Positions 28,234 to 34,801 of a DNA stretch of 64,000 bases are shown here, one piece after another. The position numbers were made by a program, and so were the translations under genes. Each line of letters opens with the position of its first letter. The stretch's first letter is position 1. The notes beneath the pieces are model-generated. The model had not been told where the DNA came from. It ran no database searches and saw nothing but the letters and a program-made list of their open reading frames with translations. Source of the DNA: an uncultured Tateyamaria sp. (GTDB taxonomy: Bacteria; Pseudomonadota; Alphaproteobacteria; Rhodobacterales; Rhodobacteraceae); NCBI GenBank assembly GCA_947501275.1, contig CANMVD010000001.1, positions 806,001-870,000 on the forward strand. The letters are read 5' to 3'.

Positions 28234-28788
28234 TCAACGCGGCGAACGTTTGGCCAAAATGCGCTGCAATGTGCGACGATGCATATTCAAACGACGCGCC
28301 GTTTCCGACACATTGCGATCGCACAATTCATAAACGCGCTGAATATGCTCCCAGCGCACACGATCTGCACTCATGGGATTCTCTGGCGGCGGGGGCAAGT
28401 CGTCACCATTGGCCAAAAGAGCGTTGGTAATGTCAGTAGCATCCGCGGGCTTTGACAGATAGTCAGTTGCACCGATTTTGACAGCCGCCACGGCCGTGGC
28501 GATGGCACCATAGCCGGTCAACACAACCACGCGGGCGTCCGGGCGCTTTTCGCGCAGCACCTCTACCACGTCCAAGCCATTGCCGTCTTCCAGACGCAAA
28601 TCGACAACCGCAAAGGCTGGCGGACGCGCCGTGGCAATGGCCTTTCCCGCCGCAACCGACTCTGCCGTTTCCGTTTCAAATCCGCGTTTTTCCATAGCTT
28701 TGGCAAGACGACGCAGAAACGGCTCGTCATCGTCGACCAGCAACAAAGTCTTGTCTTCGCCAATCTCAGTCATCGCGGCTTCGGCCAT
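28234..28788 (-). CDS. regA: Global redox response regulator RegA/PrrA
   Basis: Response regulator of the RegBA (PrrBA, ActRS) system, 184 residues, controlling photosynthesis, respiration, carbon and nitrogen fixation genes in relatives. The receiver domain has the acidic pocket VDDDE (about 18-22), phospho-acceptor Asp63 in VVDLRLEDG and Lys in LSKPADA. A run of prolines links it to a Fis-type helix-turn-helix, NVSETARRLNMHRRTLQRILAKR. The start MAEAAMTEIG follows a GGGAG site. Together with senC and regB next door this is the canonical cluster. Confidence 0.96.
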   Translation of the reverse strand: MAEAAMTEIGEDKTLLLVDDDEPFLRRLAKAMEKRGFETETAESVAAGKAIATARPPAFAVVDLRLEDGNGLDVVEVLREKRPDARVVVLTGYGAIATAVAAVKIGATDYLSKPADATDITNALLANGDDLPPPPENPMSADRVRWEHIQRVYELCDRNVSETARRLNMHRRTLQRILAKRSPR

Positions 28789-28869
28789 CTTTTTCTCCCG
28801 GTTCCAAATCGTCTGGCTACGCAGAACTATGGGGCGCGACCCCGCCTTCGTCAATTTTTTGCGGAAAAA

Positions 28870-29490
28870 TCAGGCATTTTCTACAAAACAAGCCACACGA
28901 TCCGCCATGGTTTCTGCGCTGACATCCCTGCGAAAGAATTCGACAAACCCATGCTCAGGCAGCACCAGATAGGTAAAGGTCGAATGGTCCACCAAATAGA
29001 ACTCGTCAGATTTATCGTGAGCCTTGTAGTAAGTCCGATATGTCTTGCTAGCTGCGTCGGTCTGCTCGGGAGTACCGGTCAATCCAATCATCTTTTCGTG
29101 CAGGTTGTAGGCAAAGTCACCCACAAGCTCTGGCGTGTCACGCTCTGGGTCAATGGTAATGAAAACCGGGGTCACCGACATGCCGCGTTCTGCAAGAACA
29201 TCAACAGCTTCTGCGTTGCGCGCCGTGTCAAGCGGACAGACATCGGGGCAGAACGTGTAACCGAAGTAGATCAATGAAGGCTCGGTGATCACATCGGCAT
29301 CCGTAACCGTTTCGCCTTGCGCGTTCACCAACTCAAACGGTCCGCCGATCTCGTTTCCATCACCTGCAACTTGGGTGGCATTACACTGGCCAAAGGCTGT
29401 GTCCGTTCCCCCACTTACCGAAAACCATACCAGGACCCCGATAAAAATGGCGGCGACAAGGGCGGCAACCGGTGCAATGATACGCGTCAT
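28870..29490 (-). CDS. senC: SCO1/SenC (PrrC) copper chaperone-like protein
   Basis: Membrane-anchored periplasmic thioredoxin-fold protein, 206 residues, that delivers copper to cytochrome c oxidase and influences RegB signalling in relatives. One N-terminal transmembrane helix (about residues 5-25) is followed by the copper motif Cys81-Pro-Asp-Val-Cys85 and a distal His in LVDHSTF. It lies between regA and the divergent regB, the usual arrangement. The 77-bp gap between senC and regB start codons should hold both promoters. Confidence 0.95.
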   Translation of the reverse strand: MTRIIAPVAALVAAIFIGVLVWFSVSGGTDTAFGQCNATQVAGDGNEIGGPFELVNAQGETVTDADVITEPSLIYFGYTFCPDVCPLDTARNAEAVDVLAERGMSVTPVFITIDPERDTPELVGDFAYNLHEKMIGLTGTPEQTDAASKTYRTYYKAHDKSDEFYLVDHSTFTYLVLPEHGFVEFFRRDVSAETMADRVACFVENA

Positions 29491-29567: not shown

Positions 29568-30962
29568 ATGGCGCAACCCGACCTTAGTCTTCTCACCGGC
29601 CAGCAACGATCGAACTGGATTCGCCTGCGCACTATGATCCTGCTGCGTTGGGTGGCTATTGTCGGGCAACTTGTCGCACTAACAGTGGCGCAGCGGTATT
29701 ACGGCCTGCAGTTGGAATTGGGGCTGTGCTACCTGGCTGTTGGCGTGTCGGTTATCGGCAATCTCATCGCCATTTTCGTGTTTCCCGAAAACAAACGTCT
29801 GAATGAAACAGAAAACCTGCTGATGGTCATGTTCGACCTTCTTCAACTGGCGTTCCTGTTGTTCTTGACGGGCGGGCTGCACAATCCATTTGCCTTGCTT
29901 TTGCTGGGGCCAGTGTCGATCTCTGCTGCTGTGTTGACCACCCGATCTACGCTACTGGTCGGAGGGACAGCAATTGTGCTGGTCACCTTATTGTCCGAGT
30001 TCCACCTGCCCCTGCGTACGCAGCAAGGGTTCATACTGCGCATTCCTGATCTGTTTGTGTTTGGTAACTGGATTGCGCTAGTCATCGCGATCAGTTTTTT
30101 CGGGGCATATTCCCGCCGCGTGACATCTGAAATCCATTCCATGTCCGACGCCCTGTCTGCCACGCAAATGGCCTTGTCGCGGGAACAGAAACTAACGGAC
30201 CTCGGGGGCGTTGTCGCCGCTGCCGCACACGAACTGGGCACGCCGCTTGCGACGATCAAGTTGGCCAGTGCAGAACTGATAGAAGAACTAGATGACCGTC
30301 CCGAATTGCGCGAAGATGCCGCCCTGATCCGTGAGCAAGCAGATCGGTGCCGCGACATCCTGCGAGACATGGGGCGCGCTGGCAAGGACGACTTGCACCT
30401 GCGACAGGCTCCGTTGATGACAGTTGTTCAAGAGGCGGCAGAACCCCACACCCACCGCGGCAAATCCGTGCATTACACCCATGATCCCGACGCAGGGGCC
30501 GAGATTGATCAGCCCGCGATCCTGCGCAAACCCGAAATCATTCACGGATTGCGCAACCTCGTGCAAAATGCCGTCGACTTTTCCCGTGCTCATGTTTGGA
30601 TCGAAGCGCACTGGACTGCCGAGCATATCACGTTGCGGATCATGGACGATGGTCGCGGCTTTCCTCCACAGCTTTTGGGACGCATTGGTGATCCGTTTGT
30701 GAGACGACGCAAATCCGGCAGTGATGGGCAGCAGAGGCCGGAATATGAGGGCATGGGATTAGGCCTGTTCATTGCCAAAACACTGTTGGAGCGTTCGGGC
30801 GCCGAATTGTCCTTTAGCAACGGAAGTGATCCATATGGTGACGAAGACCCAAGCAGCCACATCGGCGCAGTGGTCGAAGTCATATGGCCGCGCGACAAGA
30901 TTGATGCACGGATCGGGGAAAATGCAGTACCAACTGGGCTAAATGCCCCAATTACCGTATAA
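29568..30962 (+). CDS. regB: Redox sensor histidine kinase RegB/PrrB
   Basis: Membrane sensor kinase, 464 residues, that phosphorylates RegA. Six hydrophobic segments lie within about residues 25-185, including the quinone-site motif GGLHNPFALLLLGP. The dimerisation/phospho domain has His221 in AAAHELGTPLATI. Cys261 in DRCRDIL corresponds to the redox-active cysteine of Rhodobacter RegB. The ATP-binding boxes follow (NLVQNAVDFS, DDGRGF, GMGLGLF). Its direct signal is thought to be quinone and cysteine redox state, known from the family. The downstream PAS gene begins after a 90-bp gap containing a CtrA-type site. Confidence 0.96.
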   Translation: MAQPDLSLLTGQQRSNWIRLRTMILLRWVAIVGQLVALTVAQRYYGLQLELGLCYLAVGVSVIGNLIAIFVFPENKRLNETENLLMVMFDLLQLAFLLFLTGGLHNPFALLLLGPVSISAAVLTTRSTLLVGGTAIVLVTLLSEFHLPLRTQQGFILRIPDLFVFGNWIALVIAISFFGAYSRRVTSEIHSMSDALSATQMALSREQKLTDLGGVVAAAAHELGTPLATIKLASAELIEELDDRPELREDAALIREQADRCRDILRDMGRAGKDDLHLRQAPLMTVVQEAAEPHTHRGKSVHYTHDPDAGAEIDQPAILRKPEIIHGLRNLVQNAVDFSRAHVWIEAHWTAEHITLRIMDDGRGFPPQLLGRIGDPFVRRRKSGSDGQQRPEYEGMGLGLFIAKTLLERSGAELSFSNGSDPYGDEDPSSHIGAVVEVIWPRDKIDARIGENAVPTGLNAPITV

Positions 30963-30985: not shown

Positions 30986-31001
30986 TTAATGGTCTGTTAA
31001 C
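30986..31001 (+). promoter_or_regulatory. Perfect CtrA-type binding site
   Basis: TTAA (30986-30989), seven bases, then TTAAC (30997-31001): an exact match to the alphaproteobacterial CtrA box TTAA-N7-TTAAC. It lies 50 bp before the GTG start of the PAS protein and 24 bp after regB, in a short intergenic region, which is where a CtrA-activated promoter would have its -35. Confidence 0.7.
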
Positions 31002-31051
31002 CTCGGTACATCATCTTCGAGTAGCCCGGTTTTCAAACAGCGGTACCACTC

Positions 31052-32575
31052 GTGTCGATTCTCGAAATGACTTTTGTCTTGCTGTGTGCTGCGCTTGCGG
31101 CAGCCGTTGGCATTGCCTTTGTGATGTTGGGTCAAACACGCCCCGTCTCAAACCGGCAATCGCCTGATCGGGGCATGCACTTTTTGTTCCGTGACTGCGA
31201 TCTGCAACATGCTTCACCGGATGGGGCCGCGTTGATGTCCGGTGCCTATGGCGAAACAGATTGGCATGCTCTTCGTGCCATGCTCGCACCTCGCTTTCCC
31301 AACTTGCCCGATGATGAAGGTTTGCGCACGCTAGATACAACAACGATCGCCGCCATTGACCCATTGGACCGCGGTGTTGTTCATCTTGCCCGCGAGGATG
31401 AGATCATTCGTGTCGCCGTCACAGAAACGGACGCAAGCGAAGCACCTACAGCACACACCATTCGCTCGCTCCAAAGCGAAAACAGCATCCTTAGGCTGGC
31501 GGCGGACGAAGCTCCGTATCCGATCTGGATGGTCAACGAGACAGAGCATGTGATTTGGTGCAATCACACCTATGAGGCATTGGCCAACACCCACGGCGTC
31601 GCCAGCATCGACACAGATGACTCGCTGTTTCCGCTCGACACGCTTAAACGCGCCCGAAACGGATCGGTGCGGGCGAAACTGAAAACTGCAGGCGATGATG
31701 TAAACCACTGGTACGATGTCACCGCGATCACGTCCGGTGCGCAAACCGTCTGCCATGCTGTTGATATTAACGCAGTGATCCAGGCCGAAGTCGCGCAGCG
31801 CAACTTTGTGCAAACACTGGCAAAGACGTTTGCGCAACTGTCCATCGGTCTGGCCATTTTCGACCGCAATCGCCAGCTCGCCCTGTTCAATCCAGCCATT
31901 GTTGATCTTACCTCTCTGCCTGTTGAATTTCTGAGCGCGCGGCCCGATCTATCGACCTTTTTCGACAGACTCCGCGACAACAGGGTCATGCCGGAACCAA
32001 AGAACTACACATCTTGGCGGCAAGAGATTTCCAATGTCATCGCAGCAGCCACTCATGGCAGCTACCAAGAGACTTGGACGCTCGACACCGGGCATACATA
32101 CCGGGTCAGCGGCCGGCCACATCCCGATGGGGCGGTCGCCTTTCTGATCGAAGACATCACAGCGGAAATCGCCCTGACGCGGAACTTCCGCGCAGAGCTT
32201 GAACTGGGGCAATCCGTGATGGACACAATTGACGACGCCATCGTTGTGTTTTCTGCCGCTGGTGTGCTGACCTTTTGCAACTCTGCCTATCGCTCTCTCT
32301 GGAAACTGGATCCCGACAATAGCTTTGCAGATGTAACAATCGCGGACTCTCTGAAAGCGTGGCAATCCCAGTGCCAACCAGATCCCGACTGGAGCGACAT
32401 GCGCGACTTTGTGATGAAGCTGGGCGAACGTGAACATTGGAACACAACCGTGTTGCACAGTGAACTCGGACCTCATCGCGTGGATCTGACCCCCATCGTG
32501 TCGGGTGCAACCGTGGTGCGATTCAACGCTCTGGCAGGTCCTCGCATCAAAGAGGGTGCGCTCGCGTCAGTCTAA
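31052..32575 (+). CDS. PAS-domain membrane protein, DivL-like, lacking a kinase domain
   Basis: A 507-residue protein with one N-terminal transmembrane helix (about residues 5-25) and several PAS-like regions, including APYPIWMVNETEHVIWCN (about 151), SIGLAIFDRNRQLALFNPA (about 265) and ETIDDAIVVF-type sequence at about 390. No histidine-kinase phospho-acceptor or ATPase boxes follow; the protein ends after the last PAS. I infer it is the rhodobacterial form of DivL, the PAS protein feeding the CckA-ChpT-CtrA relay, from its architecture, the CtrA box in front and the tsaE-amgK-murU genes behind. GTG start; ATG 31067 is an alternative. Confidence 0.75.
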   Translation: MSILEMTFVLLCAALAAAVGIAFVMLGQTRPVSNRQSPDRGMHFLFRDCDLQHASPDGAALMSGAYGETDWHALRAMLAPRFPNLPDDEGLRTLDTTTIAAIDPLDRGVVHLAREDEIIRVAVTETDASEAPTAHTIRSLQSENSILRLAADEAPYPIWMVNETEHVIWCNHTYEALANTHGVASIDTDDSLFPLDTLKRARNGSVRAKLKTAGDDVNHWYDVTAITSGAQTVCHAVDINAVIQAEVAQRNFVQTLAKTFAQLSIGLAIFDRNRQLALFNPAIVDLTSLPVEFLSARPDLSTFFDRLRDNRVMPEPKNYTSWRQEISNVIAAATHGSYQETWTLDTGHTYRVSGRPHPDGAVAFLIEDITAEIALTRNFRAELELGQSVMDTIDDAIVVFSAAGVLTFCNSAYRSLWKLDPDNSFADVTIADSLKAWQSQCQPDPDWSDMRDFVMKLGEREHWNTTVLHSELGPHRVDLTPIVSGATVVRFNALAGPRIKEGALASV

Positions 32576-32629: not shown

Positions 32630-33103
32630 ATGCTGACCTCGCCGCATAAACTGGATTTGCCCGATGCCGACAGAACGGCCCGGTTTGGTGCGGCCATGGC
32701 TCAGGCGTTGACCCCCGGTGACTGCGTGTTGTTGTCCGGGTCGGTGGGCGCGGGTAAAACTCACTTCGCCCGAGCTCTGATCCAATCCATCCTTCCAGTG
32801 CCCGAAGATGTACCTTCGCCGACTTTCACGTTGGTGCAAACCTACGACACCAATCGCGGCCAACTGTGGCATGTGGATCTGTACCGTATCAGCATGGATG
32901 CAGAAATTGACGAACTTGGCCTGATTGATGCGTTTGACAGTGCCATCTGCCTTGTAGAATGGCCTGACAGATTGGGTTCGCTTGCGCCAAAAAACGCATT
33001 GAACATCGCATTGGACACGGCGGGCGAGGGGCGGCAGGCGACACTGTCCTGGAGCGATGAAAAGTGGATTACATACCTGAATGAAGCAAAACAGAATGTC
33101 TGA
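32630..33103 (+). CDS. tsaE: tRNA threonylcarbamoyladenosine ATPase TsaE
   Basis: P-loop ATPase of the t6A synthesis complex, 157 residues, partner of TsaD (encoded at 15-16 kb). Walker A SVGAGKTHFARAL is at about residues 40-52. SPTFTLVQTY and HVDLYRI follow, both typical for the family, then LVEWPDRLG. It overlaps the downstream kinase gene by 8 bp. The gap of 54 bp from the PAS gene shows no terminator. Confidence 0.95.
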   Translation: MLTSPHKLDLPDADRTARFGAAMAQALTPGDCVLLSGSVGAGKTHFARALIQSILPVPEDVPSPTFTLVQTYDTNRGQLWHVDLYRISMDAEIDELGLIDAFDSAICLVEWPDRLGSLAPKNALNIALDTAGEGRQATLSWSDEKWITYLNEAKQNV

Positions 33104-34121
33104 CTATCGCGCACAACAAGCACAGGACTTTCTGCGCGCCGCCGGATGGCATGACGCCATGCAACTCACGATTGCCGGTGATGCCTCGAACCGAAGATAC
33201 GACAGGCTGACCTCCAAGGACGGGTCGGTCGCCATTCTGATGGACGCCCCGCCCAGCAAGGGTGAGGATGTCCGTCCGTTTGTCCATATCACCACCTTTT
33301 TGCGGCAACAGGGGCTATCGGCGCCTGCTGTCTATGCAGAGGACCCGCGCCACGGCTTCCTGCTCCTCGAAGACCTTGGGGACGATCTGTTTGCCCGCGT
33401 TGTCCAAGAACAGCCCGAACGCGAGCAAGCGCTTTATGAATCGGCTGTTGATGTACTTGTCCATTTGCATCGCGCACCAGCGCCAGACCTGCCAGCCTAC
33501 GATGCTGCCACGATGACACCTTTGGCCGCGTTGGCTTTTGATTGGTACCAGCTGGGCGCAATGGGCAAAGTGGATGCGGATGCCAAACAACATTTTGAAA
33601 ATGCCTTTTCTGCGGCGCTTCAGCCACTTGATGCGGACATATCCGTTCTGATCCAGCGCGACTATCACGCCGAAAACCTACTATGGCTGCCAGATCGAGC
33701 AGGTGTCGCATGTGTTGGTTTGCTGGATTATCAGGATGCCATGTTGGGCCACCCGGCTTATGATCTTGTATCCATCTTGCAAGACGCCAGGCGCGACGTA
33801 AGCTCCGAATTGGCAGAGCGAATGATCGACCGCTACTTGACAGCCACGGAGATGAATCCGGCAGCATTTCGCAATGCCTATGCTCTGCTGGGGGCGCAAC
33901 GCAATTTGCGCATTCTGGGCGTGTTTGCACGGCTTTCCCTGTCTTATGGCAAGCCACATTACGTCGATCTCATTCCCCGGGTCTGGAACCACCTGCAGAC
34001 ATGCCTCCTCCAACCAGCCTGCGCTGACGTAGCGACGACCCTGCAAAATCAAATGCCCCAACCAACCCCAGAAATCCTTCAAAGTCTCAAAGATCAATGC
34101 GCGACACAGTCCCACCCATAA
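33096..34121 (+). CDS. amgK: Sugar kinase of the aminoglycoside phosphotransferase fold, AmgK-like
   Basis: A 341-residue APH-fold kinase. The N-lobe shows GDASNRRYDRL, and the catalytic loop DYHAENLLWLP is followed by the metal-binding LLDYQDAMLGHPAYDL. Next to a MurU-like nucleotidyltransferase this matches AmgK, which phosphorylates the anomeric position of N-acetylmuramic acid in the cell-wall recycling route that bypasses MurA. ATG 33096 overlaps the tsaE stop; the upstream start at 33081 is possible. Function is inferred from family and pairing. Confidence 0.85.
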   Translation: MSDYRAQQAQDFLRAAGWHDAMQLTIAGDASNRRYDRLTSKDGSVAILMDAPPSKGEDVRPFVHITTFLRQQGLSAPAVYAEDPRHGFLLLEDLGDDLFARVVQEQPEREQALYESAVDVLVHLHRAPAPDLPAYDAATMTPLAALAFDWYQLGAMGKVDADAKQHFENAFSAALQPLDADISVLIQRDYHAENLLWLPDRAGVACVGLLDYQDAMLGHPAYDLVSILQDARRDVSSELAERMIDRYLTATEMNPAAFRNAYALLGAQRNLRILGVFARLSLSYGKPHYVDLIPRVWNHLQTCLLQPACADVATTLQNQMPQPTPEILQSLKDQCATQSHP

Positions 34122-34801
34122 TGCTGTACGCCGCTGGGTTTGGGACGCGCATGCGCGACCTGACCAAAGGCCGGCCCAAGCCGCTTGTGCCAGTTGCGGG
34201 CAAGGCATTGATCGACCACGCCCTCGATCTGGTTGATGACGTTGCACCGCCCCGCGTGGTAGCCAATTTGCATTACCTGCCAGACATGTTGGAACGTCAC
34301 CTTATAGGATCCGGTGTCCATACGATCCGTGAAGAACCGGACATCCTTGAGACCGGCGGCGGGTTGCGCAATGCATTGCCGCTTTTAAACTCTGACACCG
34401 TGATCACCCTGAACACAGATGCAATCTGGGCTGGCGCTAATCCCGTTCAGATATTGTTGGAAAAATGGAACCCTGAGAAGATGGATGCGCTGTTGATCAG
34501 CGTTCCACTCAATCATGTGTATGGGCGTGCCTCTGAGGGGGATTTCAACCTTGCCGATGACGGACAATTGCGACGTGGGCCGCATGTTACGCATGACATT
34601 GTGTATGGCGGCGTACAGATCCTCAAAACTCAAGGATTGCACGACATCTCCGAAACTTCGTTTTCGCTTAACCTTTTGTGGAACCAGATGGCGCAATCTG
34701 GTCGGTTGTTTGGCGCGCACTACCCGGGAGACTGGTGCGATGTCGGCAGTCCCGAAGGCGTTATAGAAGCCGAAGCGATGTTGGCGCGCGCGCATGTTTG
34801 A
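34097..34801 (+). CDS. murU: N-acetylmuramate-1-phosphate uridylyltransferase-like protein
   Basis: A 234-residue nucleotidyltransferase of the sugar-phosphate type. The signature LYAAGFGTRMRDLTKGRPKP (about residues 10-29) carries the G-x-G-T-R-x-x...K-P-K motif, followed by LVPVAGKALIDHAL, and it has the ETGGGLRNALPLL segment. Together with AmgK it would convert recycled MurNAc to UDP-MurNAc. It overlaps amgK by 25 bp and addB by 8 bp, so the region is one operon. Identity as MurU rather than another nucleotidyltransferase rests on pairing. Confidence 0.85.
   Translation: MRDTVPPIMLYAAGFGTRMRDLTKGRPKPLVPVAGKALIDHALDLVDDVAPPRVVANLHYLPDMLERHLIGSGVHTIREEPDILETGGGLRNALPLLNSDTVITLNTDAIWAGANPVQILLEKWNPEKMDALLISVPLNHVYGRASEGDFNLADDGQLRRGPHVTHDIVYGGVQILKTQGLHDISETSFSLNLLWNQMAQSGRLFGAHYPGDWCDVGSPEGVIEAEAMLARAHV

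Follow-up and report, generated by a model that had tools for sequence, protein, structure and literature searches.

The gene at positions 31052 to 32575 on the plus strand of the window (the whole 64,000-nucleotide stretch analysed here) is, as judged by homology, the short divL of Rhodobacterales. Very probably it has its own CtrA-activated promoter and closes a positive loop that runs from CtrA through DivL and CckA back to CtrA. The CtrA box in front of the gene is established as real by its conservation, not by the single copy present in the window. For this species, four points are inferred: that CtrA binds the box, that it activates divL, where transcription begins, and that DivL acts on CckA. 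The core of the claim is already in print; what is added here is the large number of loci checked and the natural deletions described below.

Identity of the PAS protein

The open reading frame starts with GTG, encodes 507 amino acids and stops shortly after its last PAS domain. A single N-terminal hydrophobic stretch was recognised by eye. Pfam matched the families PAS_7, PAS_8, PAS and PAS_4 only and found neither HisKA nor HATPase, which agrees with the description in an earlier note on this DNA of a membrane PAS protein without a kinase part. The classical Caulobacter-type pseudokinase half, with its H-box tyrosine, is absent. A PDB profile search returned one weak match, a BvgS chain, and a PHROGs search returned none.

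The short DivL was found in 289 of 292 Rhodobacterales genomes (E ≤1e-10), nearly always as a single match, and once in the genome that carries the window. Outside the family, the profile matched long proteins in 139 of 237 genomes (E ≤1e-15). From the 26 best-scoring long-protein loci outside the family, 20 were taken as an outgroup sample; their open frames measure 629-1080 amino acids, one being cut by a contig end. An H-box tyrosine, which we take to be the mark of DivL, is present in 18 of these 20 homologues, and the other two did not fit the search pattern. Downstream and on the same strand, tsaE and amgK occur in 8 of the 20 loci, twice directly and six times after a gap of about 0.5-2.3 kb. 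The series tsaE-amgK-murU-addAB, according to the earlier note, is presumably the usual divL neighbourhood in Caulobacter.

Within the family, long forms of DivL occupy 3 of the 127 loci examined (L196, L198 and L199). L196 and L199 have a HisKA match and no HATPase match, and L198 has neither. A tree built from 42 family and 11 outgroup rows places L196 and L199 on the outgroup side, apart from the short-form clade; L198 and the short form L197 join at the base of the short clade, where both have long branches and an unsure placement.

It is scarcely credible that this is a PAS protein unrelated to DivL: its missing pseudokinase half, NCBIfam matches that are only weak and lie in PAS stretches of other kinases, and the 98 of 241 genomes of the class with no match to the short-DivL profile would suit such a reading, but the long homologues outside the family, their tyrosine, the tsaE and amgK genes downstream and the position of the two long in-family forms in the tree all speak against it. 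The DivL-like nature suggested in the earlier note thus holds, on the homology to long DivL, the shared downstream genes and the nearly constant single copy per genome.

Conservation of the CtrA box upstream of divL

The box, TTAATGGTCTGTTAAC, occupies positions 30986 to 31001 on the plus strand and matches the full site TTAA-N7-TTAAC exactly. As the earlier note had stated, it lies 50 bp before the GTG of the PAS gene at 31052. Taken singly, it is weak evidence. When up to one mismatch is allowed, the window holds 4 matches where 3.73 would be expected, and 37 of 20,000 shuffled versions of its 240-nt stretch between regB and divL contained a box. Over both strands of the whole genome there are 22 exact matches versus 25 for the reversed pattern; since this is no enrichment, the genome-wide count was left aside as evidence.

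Conservation was measured in 127 loci, which by our tally represent all but one (108) of the 109 genera in which DivL was matched. They comprise a subset of 86 (the locus of the window, 29 others and 56 picked mostly one per further genus) and a subset of 41 from further genera outside those of the first; one more genus (G081) was left out, its match lying at a contig end. In each locus we scanned 240 nt, the first base lying 20 nt ahead of the regB stop. Between regB and divL, 107 of the 127 loci hold an exact box (77/86 and 30/41), 102 of them on the plus strand and 5 on the minus strand only. Shuffled stretches gave a mean of 0.12 exact boxes and a maximum of 2 in 200 rounds, and the reversed pattern gave no exact match in the 127 loci. 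Spacers of 4, 5, 6, 8, 9 and 10 yielded 0-1 exact matches in either subset, and a spacer of 3 yielded 2 among the 86 loci in a first, slightly different scan. The divL-tsaE junction, used as a further control, contained no exact box in any of 119 loci. With one mismatch permitted the box is found in 119 of the 127 loci (84/86 and 35/41), a less telling figure because spacers of 4, 5, 6, 8, 9 and 10 then also score, in 3-20 of the 86 and 1-8 of the 41 loci.

By automatic count, 20 of the 127 loci have no exact box. Inspection by hand of the eight worst, those with at least two mismatches, showed an exact box just beyond the scanned region in L163 and L193 and none in the other six, which leaves 18; the totals given here keep the automatic count. 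A named set of 80 loci, which overlaps the set described above and is not independent of it, has the exact box in 70 of the 76 loci with regB in the stretch, versus 1 for the reversed pattern and 1 for a spacer of 5. At the outgroup loci, the exact box is present in 3 of 20. The conservation upstream of homologues that the earlier note proposed to examine is observed within the family.

It is very improbable that the box arose by chance and that divL is transcribed only by read-through from regB. The lack of genome-wide enrichment would agree with chance, and so would a gap between regB and divL in which no terminator-like site was found with read-through, the terminator and sigma-70 scans there being otherwise uninformative. 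Against chance stand the 107 boxed loci, compared with the shuffled mean of 0.12, and a variable spacer followed by a −10-like element in register.

Three family genomes lack a DivL match even with the profile: G138, G251 and G232. The last is also without above-cut-off CtrA, ChpT and RegB. G138 and G251 keep all three (one in-frame TAA was counted in the CtrA match of G138), so the relay genes for CtrA and ChpT can persist without DivL, which is dispensable to the relay there. In both, tsaE follows regB directly, and the stretch between them is free of boxes even when one mismatch is allowed. As regB is kept and the box is not, the box belongs with divL rather than with regB.

Promoter layout and direction of control

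We aligned the 102 plus-strand boxes. The spacer bases vary, the first being C in 68% of the boxes, and the right half tends to extend as TTAACCAT (72, 48 and 57%). A −10-like element follows the box, with A at +12 (61%) and +13 (53%) and T at +16 (54%) and +17 (59%), and the distance from the box to the first in-frame start has a median of 47 nt. In the window the corresponding element would be CATCTT at positions 31012 to 31017 (+), a weak candidate that fits two of the four conserved positions (A at 31013 and T at 31017). The box itself is exact, and it would lie at the −35 region going by the family-wide −10-like element, which the window matches in part. In Rhodobacter sphaeroides, CtrA promoters are reported to have the end of the box 23-24 nt before the start and an A at −11 (PMC6180460). 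The element seen across the family fits this arrangement, and a divL transcription start is thus tentatively predicted near 31024.

Phosphorylated CtrA would bind the box, overlapping the −35 region, and switch divL on. DivL, as a membrane PAS protein, would favour the kinase state of CckA, whose phosphate would pass to ChpT and on to CtrA, giving positive feedback at the relay's sensor end. That CtrA acts on its own upstream sensor, as the earlier note proposed, is the best model.

Published data bear on several of these steps. Brilli 2010 (PMC2877005) reports that the kinase domain is missing from the DivL of cluster B Rhodobacterales and predicts that CtrA controls CckA and DivL there, forming a feedback; because of this prediction, the main claim of the earlier note is not new. 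The divL transcript is reported as reduced in ctrA, cckA and chpT mutants of Dinoroseobacter shibae, which has a predicted CtrA site at divL (PMC4046655), and divL1 as reduced in ctrA and cckA mutants of P. inhibens (PMC12363192); each of these two species has two genes called divL, either of which may be the orthologue of the window gene. In R. capsulatus, divL is reduced in ctrA knockouts (PMC6363796), and DivL is cited as acting on CckA/CtrA phosphorylation (PMC9143464, PMC6363796). A box alone does not prove control, because the cckA gene of Ruegeria KLH11 has a full site and yet is described as not responding to CtrA (PMC3692519).

CtrA might instead repress divL through the box, in a negative feedback, and some promoters are indeed reported to be repressed by CtrA (PMC6180460). 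We regard this as improbable, since the box is placed as in activated promoters and divL falls rather than rises when ctrA is mutated in D. shibae, R. capsulatus or P. inhibens. Activation within a positive loop is the best reading because of the position of the box, the −10-like element and these expression data.

The closest published counterparts are the Rhodobacterales short DivL proteins rcc00042 of R. capsulatus and Dshi_3433 of D. shibae, described like the window protein as PAS proteins without a kinase (PMC4046655, PMC6363796, PMC6473078). Both genes are reported as lower in ctrA mutants and as preceded by a CtrA site, a predicted one in D. shibae, as the window gene is by its box; likened in this way by published descriptions, they show no feature that distinguishes them from it. 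Short DivL together with absent DivK is described as a common trait of Rhodobacterales (PMC9430884). The cluster B circuit of Brilli 2010, in which CtrA controls itself, cckA and divL, likewise combines a kinase-less DivL with no DivK, and in the present genome ctrA (with one mismatch), the CckA-like gene and divL are all boxed.

Caulobacter DivL is reported to act upstream of CckA (PMC7200025) and to have a pseudokinase half (PMC6473078), whereas the window protein ends after its last PAS domain; the homology of its PAS half to the window protein is drawn through the long alphaproteobacterial DivL proteins. The Osp circuit of R. sphaeroides (PMC9430884) resembles the proposed DivL loop in that a CtrA-activated regulator feeds back on CckA, but Osp, a response regulator with a single domain, inhibits CckA, while the PAS protein DivL is reported to promote CckA activity.

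The prediction of 2010 has now been checked at scale, with the exact site before divL in 107 of 127 loci and gone in G138 and G251. Because of this conservation, and because the box is gone together with divL in two genomes, a positive loop at the sensor end is a sound default for Rhodobacterales. G138 and G251 are natural knock-outs, and L196, L198 and L199 are long-DivL relatives, with which the role of the loop can be probed.

Gene order and a possible redox link

Upstream of divL and on the same strand lies regB, encoding the redox sensor histidine kinase, at 29568 to 30962 (NF045988 RegB equivalog, 802.6 bits, cut-off 570), which bears out the earlier placement of divL directly behind it. 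Further upstream, on the minus strand, are senC/SCO1 (28870 to 29490; PF02630) and the response regulator gene regA (28234 to 28854; NF033791, 323.2 bits, cut-off 250). Downstream, all on the plus strand, the earlier note had read tsaE, amgK and murU. The first name stands firmly, tsaE at 32630 to 33103 matching PF02367 and TIGR00150 above cut-off; the other two are better called amgK-like (a kinase gene, 33081 to 34121; NF045698, 290.7 bits) and murU-like (a nucleotidyltransferase gene, 34097 to 34801; NF045697, 187.2 bits), as their scores fall below the curated cut-offs of 500 and 370. In G251, no credible amgK match lies between tsaE and the murU-like reading frame (L302).

Across the family, regB adjoins divL in 126 of the 127 loci and tsaE follows in 119. 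The best explanation of the locus is that divL has a promoter of its own, predicted from the conserved sequence, within this nearly fixed regB-divL-tsaE order. All three long forms have regB adjoining, and of these only L198 has the exact box. Together with the placement of the long forms in the tree, their neighbours and boxes suggest that regB may have become the neighbour of divL ahead of the decay of the kinase half, and that the box may have become fixed around that decay. The H-boxes of L196 (G110) and L199 (G141) read ISHRLRTP and ISHQMRTP, with histidine versus the tyrosine of 18 of the 20 outgroup DivL proteins; both proteins thus carry a phospho-acceptor-like histidine with no recognisable ATP-binding domain.

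The pairing of regB and divL might itself be functional, regB transcription or RegA activity setting DivL levels and redox thereby feeding the CtrA relay. We consider this unlikely, though it fares best among the alternatives. The adjacency extends to the long forms L196 and L199, which are without the exact box; in R. capsulatus, loss of RegA is reported to lower the CtrA regulon, and FnrL binding next to divL is said to be suggested by ChIP and in silico data (PMC7232146). According to the same report, RegA regulates no relay gene other than chpT. The adjacency alone is weak evidence because tsaE is nearly as constant a neighbour; moreover, regB persists without divL in G138 and G251, and regB stands beside divL in 0 of the 20 outgroup stretches. 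The broader version, that read-through or RegA input sets DivL and couples oxygen or redox state to CtrA output family-wide, is a shade more doubtful still. If true, redox coupling would reach motility and the gene transfer agent across the whole family.

The three mentions of divL in PMC7232146 do not bring in the regB neighbourhood, and, among the papers listed that name both genes, no title or abstract opening has the pairing as a topic, although it may have been published elsewhere. In R. capsulatus, regB transcripts are reported as unchanged after loss of CtrA relay genes (PMC7232146), in keeping with a box that goes with divL rather than regB. The adjacency is nearly fixed but shows no mechanism. 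A functional redox link through RegB is unlikely, and the positive loop from CtrA through DivL is the reading we prefer.

Relay genes and other CtrA boxes in the same genome

The genome that carries the window encodes CtrA (NF045991, 432.6 bits), ChpT (PF10090, above cut-off) and a hybrid kinase with PAS, HisKA, HATPase and receiver domains, called CckA-like by its architecture only; a gene transfer agent gene is also present. An exact box precedes the likely GTG of the CckA-like gene by 53 nt, and a box with one mismatch precedes the ctrA start by 57 nt, so that these two genes and divL share the same box layout. In 9 of 9 genomes (L200, L284-L291), the best box of ctrA is one or two mismatches off and lies 48-59 nt before the start; it often reads GTAAC-N6-TTAAC, unlike the mostly exact box of divL.

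Beside 16 exact-box places of this genome, the plausible targets are the CckA-like gene and a luxR-type gene. The other neighbours are mixed (RTX-repeat reading frames, a COX1 reading frame, an aminotransferase and reading frames with no Pfam hit), some exact boxes fall inside coding sequence, and we do not claim a wider CtrA regulon from these boxes. RTX-repeat reading frames lie downstream of three exact CtrA-type boxes (L008, L012 and L023). In L009, a box at positions 1501-1516 that matches on either strand precedes a LuxR-type autoinducer-binding regulator by about 165 bp; a box is likewise reported at quorum-sensing genes of D. shibae (PMC4046655).
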